Positions 6,212 through 36,210 of a stretch of 36,210 nucleotides of DNA are shown in pieces. The translations under genes were made by a program, and so were the position numbers. How positions within the stretch are numbered: position 1 is the first letter of the stretch; every line of letters starts with the position of its first letter. Origin of the DNA: Candidatus Gastranaerophilales bacterium. Lineage in GTDB: Bacteria; Cyanobacteriota; Vampirovibrionia; Gastranaerophilales; Gastranaerophilaceae. Location: contig CALVEO010000015.1 in NCBI GenBank assembly GCA_944326615.1, positions 1 through 36,210 on the forward strand. The letters run 5' to 3'. Under the pieces are notes generated by a model. That model was not told the DNA's origin. It searched no databases and saw only the letters and a list, made by a program, of their open reading frames with translations.

Positions 6212-7726
6212 ATGAAATTATTACGTAATGTTAATCGGGGGGGGGGGCACTCCCAGCTAGCAGAAGGCAGGAAGTCAGGAAATCAATTTGTTTACAGTAA
6301 TGTCATTGCGCATTTATTGCGCAATCTGGAATTTGTCCTAAAAAGATCGCGCAACAAGTGCGCGATGACTGGTCTTAATATTCAACAATCCCTCGCCCCT
6401 TTGGGGAGAGGGGCTTATCAGGATAGCGGCCGGAGGATCGGATGTCAGGAGGTCAAGCTATTATCAGTGCTGCGCACTAAAATAACTTCTGTAACCAGCC
6501 TGCCTTCTTGCCATCTGAACTTATGTTCTTCTGATTGTTACCCACCCTCCCTAATCAGTGAGGGAGCATGTTCCCGTAAATCCATTCTAAAAGCTAATAT
6601 CTGTCATTGCGAGCGACAGAATGGAGCGTCGCAATCTCATAATTTATGTAATATTAATGAGATTACTACGTCGAATGCTTCGCATTCTCCTCGCAATGAC
6701 ATAGAAAGTTTATGCAAGACACAAGTGGTGGATGGAACGGCTACGTTCCCTCGTAATGACATAGAAAATTCATGCAAAACACAGGTGTCGGGTGCAGTGG
6801 CTACGCTGCCGCATAGGGGAGAAGGAATAAGTAACTACAATCAAATTATATATAATAATCAGCCCTCACCCCAACCCTCTCCCACAGGAGAGGAAGTAAG
6901 TAATTATAAGATGCTGAAACAAGTTCAGCATGACACTAATTCCTCGAAACGAACTTATTCACCTATTCACTTATTCTCTTATTCACCTTGTAAACGCTGC
7001 GCGTTTACATTAGCGGAGGTGTTGATTACATTAGGAATTATAGGCATAGTCGCAGCTATGACTATGCCGTCGCTGATTGCAAACCATAGAGAAAAGCAAA
7101 CTGTTGCACAATTAAAAAAAGCGTATTCTACAATACAACAGGCTTATTTAATGGCTATTAACAAATACGGTGATGCTGAAAGCTGGAGTCTTAGCAATAC
7201 ACATATAGGAGACGACGATGAGGGAAATGCTATTACAGATTACACAAGTGCATATACAATTTTTAATTACCTTGCCGAAAATATGAAATCAGTAGACGGA
7301 GGCAAAGCAAATCAATATATTCATCATGAATATGATTCTTACTCATTAGACGGAACCTTCAGAAATACAATCTCAACCAACAGGGATATTCCAAATATAG
7401 CCCTAGCTGATGGTACAACAATTTCATCAGGATGGATAGAAAACGGAATGATGGATATTTATGTTTCACTTAATAAATGCATGAATAAAGGTAAATGTAC
7501 TTTGGGAAAAGATACATTTTATTTTCAAATTTACTTTTCACCCGCCAAAATTGTCCCGGAGGGTAGTCCAACATACAGTACAACATATTTCAAAAACCTC
7601 TGTAATAAAGGAATAACAGACAGAAATAACGGACGCGGATGTACTGCATGGGTTTTGCAAAATGAAAACATGGATTATCTGCACTGTGATGATTTAGATT
7701 GGAATACAAAAATCAGATGCAAGTAA
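6212..7726 (+). CDS. Prepilin-type protein with 264-residue repeat-built leader and poly-G run
   Basis: Type IV pilin-like (or pseudopilin-like) protein. The class III-type processing site is Ala264-Phe265, starting FTLAEVLITLGIIG, with the conserved Glu at mature position 5; about 240 mature residues follow, with several cysteines. Upstream, the reading frame stays open through about 790 bp of short hairpin repeats, giving an unusually long leader. Start ATG 6212 has AAGGAGG 6 nt upstream, so translation from there is likely. Codons 9-12 lie in a run of 11 G (6237-6247); loss or gain of one G would put the frame into an early stop. Residues from 160 on contain a 20-residue tandem repeat (RNDIE.xCKTQV). 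An internal ATG at 6911 could give a short normal leader of about 31 residues. Whether the long leader is made, cleaved or tolerated cannot be told from sequence. Confidence 0.75.
   Translation: MKLLRNVNRGGGHSQLAEGRKSGNQFVYSNVIAHLLRNLEFVLKRSRNKCAMTGLNIQQSLAPLGRGAYQDSGRRIGCQEVKLLSVLRTKITSVTSLPSCHLNLCSSDCYPPSLISEGACSRKSILKANICHCERQNGASQSHNLCNINEITTSNASHSPRNDIESLCKTQVVDGTATFPRNDIENSCKTQVSGAVATLPHRGEGISNYNQIIYNNQPSPQPSPTGEEVSNYKMLKQVQHDTNSSKRTYSPIHLFSYSPCKRCAFTLAEVLITLGIIGIVAAMTMPSLIANHREKQTVAQLKKAYSTIQQAYLMAINKYGDAESWSLSNTHIGDDDEGNAITDYTSAYTIFNYLAENMKSVDGGKANQYIHHEYDSYSLDGTFRNTISTNRDIPNIALADGTTISSGWIENGMMDIYVSLNKCMNKGKCTLGKDTFYFQIYFSPAKIVPEGSPTYSTTYFKNLCNKGITDRNNGRGCTAWVLQNENMDYLHCDDLDWNTKIRCK
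6237..6247 (+). repeat. Run of 11 G in codons 9-12 of the prepilin gene
   Basis: With 11 G the frame runs on to the pilin. With 10 G it stops at a TAG about 10 nt downstream; with 12 G it stops at a TAA near 6297. This is the layout of a slipped-strand phase switch. An assembly or sequencing error in the run length is possible. Confidence 0.7.
6602..6701 (+). repeat. Hairpin repeat with 12-bp terminal inverted repeats inside the prepilin leader
   Basis: TGTCATTGCGAG (6602-6613) is exactly repeated in inverted form at 6690-6701, flanking 76 bp. An inner hairpin GAATGCTTCGCATTC lies within. The unit resembles the small palindromic repeats that occur in many bacterial genomes, here in frame in a coding region. 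Confidence 0.65.
6689..6808 (+). repeat. Two 60-bp tandem units, in frame
   Basis: 6689-6748 and 6749-6808 are diverged copies of one 60-bp unit, beginning CCTCGCAATGAC and CCTCGTAATGAC. Each encodes 20 residues (RNDIE...CKTQV...AT.P). Because the unit is a multiple of three, copy number could change without breaking the frame. The end of unit 1 (6725-6748) is identical to the reverse complement of 22494-22517 in the intergenic repeat island. Confidence 0.7.
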
Positions 7727-9236: not shown

Positions 9237-10688
9237 ATGACGAATGTAACAAAAAAAATGATGAATAAAACTTTAGAAAATAAATATACTAAAATAAAAG
9301 TTAAAGCCCCGATTGTAGAAGCTTTAAAAAAAGCTTATGAAAATCCGAGCTATCAGTTTCATATTCCGGGTCACACAAAAGGCAACGGTTCTTTGCCGGA
9401 ATTCAAAAAACTTATCGGAGCAAAAGCTCTTTCAATTGACACTACTGATGAATTTGACGGACTTGGCACGCTTCATCCTGCAACAGGCCCGATAAAAGAG
9501 GCTCAGGAACTTGCAGCTCAGGCATTCGGTGCTGAAAAAACATTCTTTTTACTGAACGGTTCAACAGCAGGCAACCTTGCACTTGCAATGGGGTTGACAA
9601 GACGCGGACAAAAAATTATCACAAACCGCAACTGCCACCGCTCAATTTTAACGGGTATGATAATTTCGGGTGCAGAGCCTTTATGGCTTATTCCGAAAAG
9701 ATTTTCTGAATGGGGAATCTGGGGTAATGTTACTCCTGAAAGCGTTGAAGAAATGCTCAATCATAACCCCGATGCTTCAATGGTATGGATTACAAATCCG
9801 ACTTATGAAGGTGTTGTATCGGATATAAAATCAATTTCCGCAATCTGTAAAAAATATAATGTTCCTTTAATTGTTGATGAAGCCCACGCATGTCTTTGGA
9901 ATTTTAATAATCATCTGCCTGAAACAGCTTTAAAATTAGGTGCTGATGCGGTTGTTCATTCTCTGCATAAAACAGGCGGAAGCATGAGCCAAAGCTCTAT
10001 GCTTCATATTGCAAAAAATTCCATGATTGATTGTGATGCCGTTGAAAAGGCTTTGAAATTACTGCATACCACAAGTCCTTCTCTAATGCTTCTTGCAAGT
10101 TTAGATGCTGCACGCGCAAACCTTGACAGTTCAAGAGGCAGAAAACAGCTTGAAAGGGCTGTACAGAATGCAAAATATTTACGCAGAGAAATCGACAAAC
10201 TTGAACATATTCATCATCTTCAGCCTGATTTCGGCTACAAAACAGATATTACAAAAGTTTTCATAAGAGATGACAGATTATCAGGCAAACGTCTTGAATC
10301 AATTTTAGAAATTGATTTTAACATAGAAGTTGAAAGTGCTTCTGATGCAGGACTTTTAATTCTTTCAAATATTGGTAACACAAGAGCTGATATGCAATAT
10401 CTTGTAAAATGTCTTGAACAGATAGACAGAACAAATTATACAGACATCTGCTATCTGGAAAAGAAAAAACACATGCCGATGCTCACACCGATTATCAAAA
10501 TGACGCTTCGTGAAGCTTTTTACTCTCATAAAGAAAGAATCCCTAAAGAGCATGCAGTAGGAAGAATTGCGGCAGAAGTAATTGCAGAATGTCCTCCGGG
10601 TATTGCCGTTCTGCTCCCGGGTGAATTGATAACAGAAGAGCATCTGCCATACCTTGTGGATTACGACACGATTGAAGTGATTAAGTAA
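9237..10688 (+). CDS. speA: Orn/Lys/Arg-type PLP decarboxylase (arginine decarboxylase-like)
   Basis: Cytosolic PLP-dependent amino-acid decarboxylase of the Orn/Lys/Arg group I fold, 483 residues, the length of the compact Gram-positive/cyanobacterial type. Visible landmarks are FHIPGHTKGNG (about 41-51), the LLNGSTAGN loop (105-113), NRNCHRS (131-137), the cofactor Asp in VDEAHA (213-218) and the PLP lysine Lys245 in HSLHKTGG. The C-terminal domain ends with PPGIAVLLPGE, also typical. The likely reaction is arginine to agmatine (polyamine synthesis), but lysine or ornithine cannot be excluded. There is no Shine-Dalgarno; a -10 box 7 nt upstream suggests a leaderless mRNA, so the start is only moderately sure. 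The next in-frame ATGs are at codons 8 and 9. Confidence 0.85.
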   Translation: MTNVTKKMMNKTLENKYTKIKVKAPIVEALKKAYENPSYQFHIPGHTKGNGSLPEFKKLIGAKALSIDTTDEFDGLGTLHPATGPIKEAQELAAQAFGAEKTFFLLNGSTAGNLALAMGLTRRGQKIITNRNCHRSILTGMIISGAEPLWLIPKRFSEWGIWGNVTPESVEEMLNHNPDASMVWITNPTYEGVVSDIKSISAICKKYNVPLIVDEAHACLWNFNNHLPETALKLGADAVVHSLHKTGGSMSQSSMLHIAKNSMIDCDAVEKALKLLHTTSPSLMLLASLDAARANLDSSRGRKQLERAVQNAKYLRREIDKLEHIHHLQPDFGYKTDITKVFIRDDRLSGKRLESILEIDFNIEVESASDAGLLILSNIGNTRADMQYLVKCLEQIDRTNYTDICYLEKKKHMPMLTPIIKMTLREAFYSHKERIPKEHAVGRIAAEVIAECPPGIAVLLPGELITEEHLPYLVDYDTIEVIK

Positions 10689-15123: not shown

Positions 15124-15936
15124 TTAAAAACTTATTCTTCTGGGGTAATTTTTCGGGATTTTCCAGCCGTTTCTTTGGATTATTGCGGTACAATATGCAC
15201 CCCAACCATTATTACTATTATTATTACATCCGTATGTACTATCTGTATATAATGAATTTTCATCGCCATCCCATTTGTATAGAAAAGGCTCCATACCTTT
15301 TTTGTATAAATATTTCCAGTCAGGACTATTGCCGTCTATTGGATAAAATTCAAACGCAAAAGAGCATATCCCCTTTATTTCATCATAGGTTCCGTTAGAT
15401 TTATTTATGCATTTTTCGGGATTTTTAGGATAAAAAGCTAGATCGCGGTTTTCATGATAAGCAAAAGAAAAAGCAGAACCGTCGGCTAAAAAGTAAAGAA
15501 TAATTTTGTTACCGCCGGCATCCTTTGCTTCTTTTTTATGAGTAATTTTCAAATACGGCGCAAGGTATTTTTGGAATGACTCATCATTTTTGTCGGTCTG
15601 ATTAACTGTATTTCCTTCATCATCAGTAACATCAGCATTAAAATAGCTCCAGCTTTCAACCTCACCATTATCAACAATAGATTGTAATATAGCCTGATTC
15701 ATAATAGAATAGAATTTTTTCAATCTTGCTTCTGCTACGCTGTGTGTGTAATTTTGAATTAAAGCCGGCATAGTCAAAGCCGCCACAACCCCTATAATTC
15801 CTAATGTTATCAAGACTTCAGCTAAAGTAAAAGCAGCACGACGAACATTGTCAAAGTGGGCTACGTGCGTAGCACCCTCTGCCAGCGTAAATGTATTTTT
15901 ATGAATTTGTTGTGCTTTTAACTTTGTTTTTAACAT
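15124..15936 (-). CDS. Prepilin-type protein with a duplicated FTLAE processing motif
   Basis: Type IV pilin-like protein, 270 residues. The true hydrophobic helix starts at Phe36 (FTLAEVLITLGIIGVVAAL) after Ala35, giving a mature chain of about 235 residues with Cys-containing loops near the C-terminus. The leader holds a second FTLAE at residues 16-20, not followed by a hydrophobic helix. Residues 16-35 are exactly 20 codons, so a 60-bp insertion appears to have copied the motif. The inserted DNA carries a small hairpin (CTACG-CA-CGTAG). Start ATG follows AGGAGGTAAC. A good promoter lies upstream and a small HTH gene diverges from it. It probably is a pilin or minor pilin; a secretion pseudopilin is possible. 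Confidence 0.82.
   Translation of the reverse strand: MLKTKLKAQQIHKNTFTLAEGATHVAHFDNVRRAAFTLAEVLITLGIIGVVAALTMPALIQNYTHSVAEARLKKFYSIMNQAILQSIVDNGEVESWSYFNADVTDDEGNTVNQTDKNDESFQKYLAPYLKITHKKEAKDAGGNKIILYFLADGSAFSFAYHENRDLAFYPKNPEKCINKSNGTYDEIKGICSFAFEFYPIDGNSPDWKYLYKKGMEPFLYKWDGDENSLYTDSTYGCNNNSNNGWGAYCTAIIQRNGWKIPKNYPRRISF
15877..15891 (-). repeat. Duplicated FTLAE codons (first copy; second at 15817-15831)
   Basis: TTTACGCTGGCAGAG and TTTACTTTAGCTGAA both encode FTLAE and differ at silent positions. Forty-five bp lie between them. They look like a target duplication or an unequal recombination left by a repeat insertion. Confidence 0.55.
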
Positions 15937-18634: not shown

Positions 18635-20455
18635 ATGGCCGGGTCTAAATTAGCTGGGAAAAATTATGCTTATACATTAGCCGAAATAATAATTGTAATG
18701 CTTGTTATAGCACTTATTGTTGCGGTGAGTATACGTATAACCAAGATGAAGCTGGATAATATAGTAACTTATACATACTATTCAGCTTATTCTACATTAC
18801 GGAATATTTCCCGTAATATGATTTCAGATTTTAAGCCTGACGATGAAACTTATATGACAACATACAATATTTTAAACAATTACAAACTGGCAAATAATAT
18901 ATTTTCAGGCCTGACTGTTTTGTTTGAGTCAAAAGCATTTGGCGGAAGATATTATGAAGATGGTCCTGATGATATATATGCAGATCAGATTTCTAATGAT
19001 TGTAATGGTAATGATGGTTACTACATTTGTGGTTATTCATATATGTATATACCAGGTGAAGGTGGTCGTGCTATCAGTTCCAATTTTGAGGATGGAGTTT
19101 TATATGACGGAGATGAGCCTCCAAAAAGTAAAGCTGTTTATGGATTGCCAAAAAATTTTAGTTCTATTTGTACTTCAATGCCTTTACATGAATATTTTTT
19201 TAGTCTTTATCCGGATTATGTTTCCGGAGGTACGTATGGTGGCGCAGGTATAAACGATACTTTATACTCTTCAGAATGTCCAGGCCATTATAAGGGGTTG
19301 TCAACCTATGCTTATCCAGGTAAAAGTGTAGAAGAAGGATGTATTTATCCTTGTAATAGTTATCCGGAGACTAATGATTGTGGTTATTATTCTGGAATAG
19401 CGGCTTATGGTGGACCACTTTTTGGCGACGATTTGATTGATACAATTTATAGCTATCATTTCAGGAGGCAATATCCCTCAAGGTTTGTTTCTGGCTCAAA
19501 GTATAATCATGGTGCTGTGTATGTTGCCTGTCATCCAAGAGATAATGGAGAAGACCCAAATCCTGGAGTTACTCCGGATCCAGAACCCACTCCTGAACCA
19601 GATCCAGACCCGTCTCCAGTTCCAGAAGAACCAGAGCTTCCAGCCTGTAATGTACCAGATGCATTGAGTCAGCAGGAAGCTTATTGTGCGCATGGCTATC
19701 AAAACTATGATTCAACGCCCGGCGTATGTGATTATAGCATCAAGCCAGCCAATTGGCCTCCGGAATGTAATAAAGGTTATCGCTGGAACAATGACCCGAC
19801 AGATTGTAAATGTGTTTTAGAACCCCGTACATTACCTCGTAACGGTGAAAACTTCTGTAATATGTTCGCTGGTTATGTTAATACAAAAGGTAACGGTGCA
19901 GAATGTACAGGCGATGTAATTTCATCAAATACAACAGATTTTAGTGAAAAAGTACCGGATTTAATCTTGCGCAACGGCATGCGTTTATATAACGTACATC
20001 AAGATCCGCAGGAAATAGCCGAATTAGCCGGAAATAATGAAGGCCCCGGCTATGACGGAGTCGAGAATGTAAATACGCATGGCTATACAGTTTACGTGGA
20101 TATAGACGGGGAGAATAGTAATTCAATTCTTTGGGAAGATGTTTATCCCTTTTACATAACCATGTCAGGTACAGTAATTCCTGTATACGACCATTCTCAC
20201 CCCGGCCTTTCCGGCGGCGACAGCCGTAATCATTTAATGGTAAGCGTAGAAAATGAGACAATAGGCGGTGACGGCCACCGTCATACATACTGGCTGAAAA
20301 AAAGTGTTTCGTTTAAAGAAGGCGCCTGTACTACGGGTTATGTATCTTCATCAACACCATATTGCAGCGGCGTTCCTGTAGATTTATCGTGTGCCGGCGC
20401 TAATGGTTATTCATGTAATTTGAAACACATCAAACCTGTAAAATTTCTCTTTTGA
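18635..20455 (+). CDS. Large prepilin-type surface protein with proline-rich linker
   Basis: A 606-residue protein that begins as a type IV pilin-like protein: short leader, cleavage probably after Ala12, then YTLAEIIIVMLVIALIVAV with Glu at mature position 5. A Tyr/Gly/Asp/Cys-rich first domain (to about 305) is joined by a Pro/Asp/Glu-rich linker (about 306-333) to a Cys-rich second domain (about 334-606) with CNMFAGYVNT, HGYTVYVDIDG and SHPGLSGGDSRN. This is far larger than a normal pilin and suggests a minor-pilin tip adhesin or exported pseudopilin. Start ATG follows AAAGGAGT. The DNA from about 19800 on looks less AT-rich than the first half, so the second domain might be a swapped cassette. 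Monocistronic, with promoter and terminator. Confidence 0.75.
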   Translation: MAGSKLAGKNYAYTLAEIIIVMLVIALIVAVSIRITKMKLDNIVTYTYYSAYSTLRNISRNMISDFKPDDETYMTTYNILNNYKLANNIFSGLTVLFESKAFGGRYYEDGPDDIYADQISNDCNGNDGYYICGYSYMYIPGEGGRAISSNFEDGVLYDGDEPPKSKAVYGLPKNFSSICTSMPLHEYFFSLYPDYVSGGTYGGAGINDTLYSSECPGHYKGLSTYAYPGKSVEEGCIYPCNSYPETNDCGYYSGIAAYGGPLFGDDLIDTIYSYHFRRQYPSRFVSGSKYNHGAVYVACHPRDNGEDPNPGVTPDPEPTPEPDPDPSPVPEEPELPACNVPDALSQQEAYCAHGYQNYDSTPGVCDYSIKPANWPPECNKGYRWNNDPTDCKCVLEPRTLPRNGENFCNMFAGYVNTKGNGAECTGDVISSNTTDFSEKVPDLILRNGMRLYNVHQDPQEIAELAGNNEGPGYDGVENVNTHGYTVYVDIDGENSNSILWEDVYPFYITMSGTVIPVYDHSHPGLSGGDSRNHLMVSVENETIGGDGHRHTYWLKKSVSFKEGACTTGYVSSSTPYCSGVPVDLSCAGANGYSCNLKHIKPVKFLF

Positions 20456-35002: not shown

Positions 35003-35031
35003 TTGAAAAATAATTTAATGTAGTATATAAT
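35003..35031 (+). promoter_or_regulatory. Promoter of the pilin/beta-roll gene
   Basis: TTGAAA and TATAAT are 17 bp apart and begin just after the clpB stop. The ATG lies about 32 bp downstream with AAGGAGT between. Confidence 0.65.
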
Positions 35032-35062
35032 AAAACATGTAGACCAAAAAAGGAGTGGAAGC

Positions 35063-36210
35063 ATGGAAACAGTATTAAGAAATGTAAACATCGGGGGGGG
35101 GGCACTTCTAAGCACTCCTGCCAATAGTTTCGGGGTATTCAGCCGTCGTAAAAAGAGCGGATTTACGCTAGCGGAGATGATGGTCGTGATGTTAATCATG
35201 AGTATCATTTTGGCGGCCATGGCGCCTGTAATGACAACGCGTAACAAATCAGATTATTCATCACCCTGGCGCTATTCAACGAACGGGTCAGATGCGTATT
35301 TTGGCGCTGGCGAACAGCAGGTGGCATTAATCGGGCAGCACGACACAACCGGCGATGATGCCGATACCAAGTTACTCATCAATGTAGCAGACAACAGCAC
35401 TTTCAGTCATATTTTATTTAAACAGGGTGCATCAATTTTGGGCCGTTTAAGTCTTGACCAAAGAAATAATTTATATTTAAGCAATACCCGTCCGAACGAG
35501 AACAGTGAACGTAATACAACCGTAGGCATAGATGCCTTAAAAAATAATACCGAAGGCGACGATAACACTGCGATCGGCTTTAATTCTTTAACATCTAATA
35601 CAGAAGGTGGCGGTAATGTGGCAATCGGTTCAAACTCAATGCAATCAAATACAACCGGGCACAGTAATACAGCTATCGGCAGGAGTTCTCTATCTGATAT
35701 GACGAATTCAAGTCATAACAATATTGCAATCGGGAGTTATTCAAACTGGAGGCTACCTGGTGAAGCCAATAGTAGTGGCTGGACGCCAAGAGGCACAATT
35801 GCTATCGGCTCATTTTCATCAGCTCAATCAGAGAAATCAATAGCAATAGGTACAGGTACATATTCAAACGAAGTAGTTAACGCAACAACTGCTTTTGGAA
35901 CGAATTCCATAGCCCTAGGAGCTGCAGCACATGCTGGTTTAAATGCAGCCGGCACCATAGTTGGCACTAATGCGACTGCTATCGGCTTTTCATCTCAAGC
36001 ACTTAGTAACTATTCAATTGCAATAGGCAGTGAAACACGTGCATCCAGTCAATATTCCGTAGCTATAGGCGATGAATCAGAGACTTATGGATCTTATTCT
36101 TTGGCGATAGGTCCCTATTTGGCCAAAGCTTACGGAGCGAATAGCATAGCCATAGGTAGAGAAGCTTTTGCCGGAGTAGAAGATGATGGTGCTATTAATA
36201 ACGCTATTGC
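35063..36210 (+). CDS. Prepilin fused to YadA/tail-fibre-like beta-roll (runs off window)
   Basis: This gene is open to the window edge, so only the first 382 codons are visible. Residues 1-33 form a leader (METVLRNVNIGGG...RRKKSG), then comes a type IV prepilin helix from Phe34 (FTLAEMMVVMLIMSIILAA) with Glu at mature position 5. After a roughly 95-residue spacer, repeats begin near residue 153: NTAIGFNSL, NVAIGSNSM, NTAIGRSSL, NNIAIGSYS, SIAIGTGT, then SIAIGSET and SVAIGDES. These match the left-handed beta-roll head of trimeric autotransporters (YadA) and of tail-fibre-like proteins with an S74 chaperone domain. Start ATG follows AAGGAGT. The leader has a run of 10 G. A secreted or pilus-displayed trimeric adhesin is inferred. 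Confidence 0.8.
   Translation, partial: METVLRNVNIGGGALLSTPANSFGVFSRRKKSGFTLAEMMVVMLIMSIILAAMAPVMTTRNKSDYSSPWRYSTNGSDAYFGAGEQQVALIGQHDTTGDDADTKLLINVADNSTFSHILFKQGASILGRLSLDQRNNLYLSNTRPNENSERNTTVGIDALKNNTEGDDNTAIGFNSLTSNTEGGGNVAIGSNSMQSNTTGHSNTAIGRSSLSDMTNSSHNNIAIGSYSNWRLPGEANSSGWTPRGTIAIGSFSSAQSEKSIAIGTGTYSNEVVNATTAFGTNSIALGAAAHAGLNAAGTIVGTNATAIGFSSQALSNYSIAIGSETRASSQYSVAIGDESETYGSYSLAIGPYLAKAYGANSIAIGREAFAGVEDDGAINNAI
35093..35102 (+). repeat. Run of 10 G in codons 11-14 of the pilin/beta-roll gene
   Basis: With 10 G the frame is open. With 9 G a TAA follows within three codons; with 11 G a TAG follows about 9 codons on. The position in the leader (after LRNVN) is the same as in the prepilin gene at 6212. 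Confidence 0.7.

Follow-up and report, generated by a model that had tools for sequence, protein, structure and literature searches.

Gastranaerophilales prepilins with a YadA-type head and an S74 domain, and a putative G-tract switch in their leader

A gene family of the Gastranaerophilales, gut bacteria related to cyanobacteria, almost certainly encodes, as judged from its sequences, proteins in which a type IV pilin N-terminus, a YadA-type head and an S74 domain are combined. We slightly favor the reading that these proteins are phase-variable modular minor pilins bearing trimeric adhesins. One member is located at the end of the window, i.e., the whole stretch of DNA that was analyzed, which is the entire contig C15 (36,210 bases) of a Candidatus Gastranaerophilales genome (1.96 Mb, 78 contigs, 98% complete). 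The sequence-only reading of this gene overlooked a tract of ten G (G10) inside its leader and the associated on/off pattern across the lineage.

The window gene, its paralogues and its relatives

The window gene (35063-36210, forward strand) is open at the contig end, with 382 codons visible (35063-36208), and its C-terminus is missing. It is preceded by a promoter-like site, TTGAAA-17-TATAAT (35003-35031, forward strand), which agrees with the consensus at 11 of 12 positions, is a consensus match only, and has a nearly identical counterpart upstream of the copies on contigs C27 and C41. A ribosome-binding site, GGAG (35052-35055, forward strand), was read from the sequence 7 nt upstream of the ATG. 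The coding region begins with the leader peptide METVLRNVNIGGGALLSTPANSFGVFSRRKKSG (35063-35161), which would be removed by prepilin peptidase, represented in the genome by one gene (PF01478). The class III prepilin signal KKSG/FTLAE follows, with the processing site (G-1, F+1, E+5; 35159-35176) supported by Pfam and by the alignment of relatives, and F34 is the first mature residue. Behind it lie the hydrophobic pilin helix alpha-1 (35168-35233; residues 4-25 of the AlphaFold2 model m00ca2eab1246) and an N-terminal domain (35234-35488) that, according to the alignment and a class-wide search, is family-specific and conserved in the Gastranaerophilaceae; when 289 genomes from across the class were sampled, strong matches to this domain were all found within this family, the window's own. 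The rest of the visible gene (35519-36210) encodes a YadA-head beta-roll, recognized by Pfam, by motif spacing and by structure matches of a homologue, and cut by the contig end.

Both parts were detected by Pfam in the same frame, N_methyl at residues 28-53 with an E-value of 1.1e-8 and YadA_head in five stretches with an E-value of 4.6e-18. The roll contains 13 motifs of the form [AT][IVL]G, spread over residues 153-365 and recurring every 14-18 residues in most of this stretch. There are 11 AIG/SIG motifs, whereas 2000 shuffled sequences had 0.75 on average and never more than 5. A prepilin site with a helix from residue 34 and at least ten AIG-type repeats in the frame of the pilin signal, as the sequence-only reading had described them, are thus both borne out.

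Further proteins with an N-methylation domain and YadA-head repeats, a search for which had been proposed, were found among paralogues and relatives. Three paralogues, located on the long contigs C5 (716 aa), C21 (647 aa) and C27 and each with its own flanks, have an intact frame from the pilin through the roll to the C-terminus. According to Pfam, the complete paralogues carry N_methyl, YadA_head and Peptidase_S74, an endosialidase-type chaperone domain that forms their C-terminus together with a coiled coil and retains an intact Ser-Lys dyad. The genome contains six S74 genes, all placed in the pilin-roll family by context. A YadA membrane anchor, the defining C-terminal feature of an anchored autotransporter, was looked for and is absent from the complete paralogues and from the whole, 98% complete genome; therefore, the family is classed with the modular pilins and not with the autotransporters. 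The question of the anchor, which the sequence-only reading had left to the missing C-terminus, is thereby answered for the paralogues, in favor of S74 and a coiled coil and against a YadA anchor, while the window gene itself is cut before this point. The partner domain of the head in the family sequences is one of the two known kinds, S74, here placed behind a pilin.

An SDxRLK motif is present in all 65 family members, with its S and K invariant. The catalytic Ser and Lys are five residues apart, as required of S74 or intramolecular chaperone (ICA) proteins, and the same spacing is found in the cleaving dyads S587/K592 of MyRF and S911/K916 of endoNF (PMC8326128). Cleavage of MyRF has been reported only with ICA domains organized as trimers (PMC8326128). 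Among the matches listed, the S74 domain of the family shares 37-42% identity with phage proteins. The family proteins are very likely assembled into trimers driven by S74.

The AlphaFold2 monomer model of the full-length homologue L026 (695 aa, pLDDT 76.7) was used for the structure comparison, the model of the cut-off window protein having given weak matches only. In this model, a helix at the N-terminus is followed by a long roll, and the S74 domain at the C-terminus is accompanied by a helix of 40 residues. In the structure search, the roll matched BpaC (Z 24.0), UspA1 (Z 20.3), CbpF (Z 18.9) and YadA (Z 16.4), and the MyRF ICA domain was matched by residues 590-689 (Z 8.2), with 99 residues superposed at an rmsd of 2.6. 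The copy on C21 also matches PDB chains by sequence, namely the BpaC head, the YadA head and the MyRF ICA domain.

Family matches were obtained at 80 loci in named genomes, nearly all of them metagenome-assembled genomes (MAGs) labelled Gastranaerophilales or Melainabacteria. Stray labels such as Heliobacteriaceae and Fusobacterium look like misnamed MAGs; the oddly labelled locus L103 has match coordinates identical to those of genome G265, a member of the window's own family. S74 was detected in all full-length members scanned (62/62) and YadA_head, at E<=0.001, in 41 of the 62. At the same threshold N_methyl was found in just 26/62 once the leader was cut off. The processing-site residues F+1, L+3, A+4 and E+5 are strictly conserved across the 62 members, the E being invariant.

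The G tract in the leader

The G10 tract of the window gene is located at 35093-35102 (forward strand), inside the leader, and leaves the pilin in frame; if it is a slippage switch, the gene is in the ON state. Because the prepilin cut falls downstream of the tract, the mature pilin would not reflect the tract length. In 29 copies among the 80 relatives, a run of 9-11 G is found after the start codon and before the processing site; the pilin is in frame in 11 of these copies and out of frame in 18. An in-frame start is present in 47/52 copies without a tract versus 11/29 copies with one (Fisher p 1e-6). Copies that have the same leader and occur within one genome differ by a single G in both directions: L033 (G11) is in frame and L042 (G10) is out of frame; in a second set, likewise from one genome, L066 (G10) is in frame and L058 and L070 (G11) are out. 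The tract lengths recorded in the relatives (9, 10, 11 and more) are metagenome assembly consensus values, some of which could be blurred by homopolymer errors or PCR slippage.

Where complete, the out-of-frame copies keep open pilin frames of 487-750 codons, and in every complete one the break is located at or beside the tract. Between the tract and the pilin no in-frame start was found, except for one TTG in a single out-of-frame copy. The copy on C27, the tract of which is interrupted by an A, is also out of frame. As in known phase-variable genes, a homopolymer near the 5' end thus varies in length between copies and sets the frame. The one-G differences between same-leader copies, together with the frame pattern, point to phase variation driven by slippage, which we consider likely. 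Beside an S74 prepilin, a radical-SAM-like gene (L063, from 10387) contains a G10 (10471-10480) in frame in its 5' coding part and is possibly a switched gene other than a pilin.

In the genome of the window, 74 G10 matches were counted on both strands. A scan identified 66 tracts behind a ribosome-binding site and an ATG, a figure in which some tracts are entered once per strand; a length of exactly 10 was recorded for 62. The genes that follow the tracts are mostly other prepilins (FTLAEVLITLGIIGVVAA). Of the prepilin tracts, 39 are out of frame, nearly all by the same base, and 5 are in frame, these calls being weaker for prepilins whose long leaders leave room for an internal start; at length 11, all three prepilin tracts are in frame. 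G10 or C10 stands right after the starts of dozens of prepilins, e.g., at G000:C1:12782, C3:57759 and C24:6627. Sister genomes range from none or a handful up to several hundred G10 matches, and most other families of the class have few or none, with exceptions. The near-uniform frame, one base short, fits a default-off design and also transcriptional slippage; it would not be foreseen from random slippage alone.

A second prepilin gene of the window (6212-7726) has a G11 at 6237-6247, 25 nt after the ATG and in frame, and an unusually long, repeat-like leader of about 260 residues before FTLAEVLITLG. Two further prepilin-like genes of the window, 15124-15936 (reverse strand) and 18635-20455 (forward strand), one of which belongs to the DUF6613 family, contain no G tract of 8 or more.

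Beyond the S74 family, the Gastranaerophilaceae prepilin repertoire, including the S74 YadA-head adhesins, may tentatively be seen as a var-gene-like library of antigens or adhesins on the type IV pili of commensal gut bacteria. Each member would be gated by a G/C tract in its leader, one base short by default and mostly silent, with single copies slipped on; we place this wider proposal on the doubtful side of even.

Alternative explanations

The ends of the window contig and of other copies raise the question of assembly. Copies represented by an N-terminal part that is cut at a contig end are found on C15, C67 and C41, and copies represented by a likewise cut C-terminal part on C49, C38 and C65. 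At every contig end tested, 77-98 bases are identical to a word in another copy, and these words are all that the cut starts and cut ends have in common, no exact overlap between them having been found. Because repeats of this kind usually break short-read assemblies, the end of C15 can be attributed to such a shared word. The window copy is moreover a patchwork of its paralogues, the nearest relative shifting along the gene from C27/C41 through C67, C5, C21, C27 and C49 back to C27, which fits recombination among paralogues resembling gene conversion. It is possible that the window copy by itself is a short-read chimera between paralogues; the architecture is unaffected either way. An assembly error between the pilin and the repeats, which the sequence-only reading had named as grounds for rejecting the fusion, is contradicted by the unbroken join in C5, C21 and C27. 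The broken contigs and the mosaic window copy are what could be held to favor a misjoin between a prepilin gene and a tail-fibre gene of a phage, but the join recurs in these three complete paralogues and in dozens of genomes from different projects and assemblers, no phage genes were seen around the window gene, and its N-terminal part is without a match in 50,697 phage records. We therefore rejected both an origin of the fusion in a chimeric assembly and a phage origin of the locus, and the probability of such a misjoin is negligible. A reading that leaves the fusion intact is that the N-terminal helix serves merely to anchor the protein in the membrane or to direct its export, in which case the trimer would stay on the inner membrane or serve a type II-like pseudopilus. 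Large C-terminal domains are unusual in pilins, and the genome showed only a single secretin and a single PilB-like operon, two observations that would suit such a protein. However, the strict conservation of F+1, L+3, A+4 and E+5 suits assembly into a filament better than mere anchoring, and CofB and TcpB are trimeric minor pilins for which a place at the pilus tip has been proposed or reported (PMC8179133); we consider the anchor-only function rather improbable.

Two explanations other than a DNA switch apply to the tract. The out-of-frame copies could be decaying pseudogenes with an incidental tract, as the interrupted tract of the C27 copy would suggest, but the long open frames retained by the complete out-of-frame copies, the position of the break and the lack of in-frame starts, save the one TTG, between tract and pilin make this very unlikely. 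Slippage of RNA polymerase or of the ribosome at G10/C10 could instead yield a fixed in-frame share from every copy. The uniform length of 62/66 scored tracts, the deviation of nearly all prepilin copies by the same one base and the similar behavior of G and C tracts are in keeping with this explanation. The one-G differences in both directions between same-leader copies of a genome speak against it, as do the spread of lengths among the relatives, the in-frame position of all three G11 prepilin tracts of the genome and the variation in the DNA of the pilus G tracts of 10-12 in Bifidobacterium breve (PMC9187656), and we regard it as unlikely. Slippage in the DNA, switching single copies on and off, remains the reading that we prefer.

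Relation to known systems and possible function

The genome contains a secretin, a PilB-type ATPase and a PilC-like platform protein in a single cluster on C1, as well as additional T2SSE-family ATPases, of which one resembles PilT in size, so that the PilB/PilT family is represented. Type IV pilus genes have been reported in the Gastranaerophilales before (PMC5877343). In view of these genes and of the pilin signal, display of the family proteins on a type IV filament is fairly probable. The new display route for a trimeric adhesin put forward in the sequence-only reading is upheld as far as the pilin signal, the roll, the missing anchor and the type IV pilus machine are concerned, but the join is not wholly new. 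Pilin plus S74 (IPR012902-IPR030392) has been listed as a modular-pilin architecture and was read as a predicted peptidase, with no characterized protein (PMC8179133).

Modular type IV pilins such as PilB of Streptococcus sanguinis likewise combine a class III signal and a pilin helix with a grafted module, which is a vWA module in PilB and a YadA-type roll with S74 in the window family. The work that listed the S74 fusions took them as possible peptidases and described no G-tract switch (PMC8179133), whereas S74 is best read here as a trimerizing, self-cleaving chaperone. With the trimeric autotransporter adhesins (type Vc; YadA, BpaC, UspA1, CbpF) the family shares the beta-roll head with AIG repeats, but it lacks the YadA membrane anchor, and the prepilin signal replaces the usual signal peptide. 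The C-terminal S74, the dyad spacing and the coiled-coil tail are shared with MyRF and with phage tail spikes and fibres containing S74/ICA (endoNF); in contrast to the phage proteins, the S74 domains of which are less than 60% identical (best 42% among the matches listed), the family is carried on chromosomal prepilin genes. CofB and TcpB are also homotrimers with pilin helices and large C-terminal modules and a proposed place at the pilus tip (PMC8179133), but the modules differ and trimerization occurs without S74. As for the tract, a gut pilus gene of B. breve has its reading frame set by the length of a G10-G12 tract (PMC9187656); this concerns sortase pili of a Gram-positive bacterium at two loci, compared with dozens of prepilin leaders here. 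In the open-licence literature, no paper was found on pilin-YadA fusions or phase variation in the Gastranaerophilales, nor on the combination of prepilin, YadA head and S74. The YadA head, the chaperone reading and the G-tract switch thus appear to be undescribed, the join of pilin and S74 being already known.

We propose that a family protein would be exported via Sec and would trimerize through its C-terminal coiled coil and S74 domain while the roll head folds, after which the S74 domain would cut itself off. Prepilin peptidase would take off the leader and, with it, every trace of the G tract. The three pilin helices would then be built into a type IV filament, on which the protein, probably positioned at the tip, would act as an adhesin. 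Slippage of the tract would turn single copies on or off, and a cell would show just part of the repertoire.

The lineage is uncultured or nearly so. If the proposed reading is correct, type IV filaments provide a second display route for YadA-type trimeric adhesins, on which a phage-type S74 chaperone replaces the outer-membrane anchor. The pilin-S74 architecture, previously listed without a concrete role, would thereby gain one, that of a trimerizing chaperone and not of a protease, and the G tracts in the leaders would make a common uncultured gut lineage a case of large-scale pilin phase variation.
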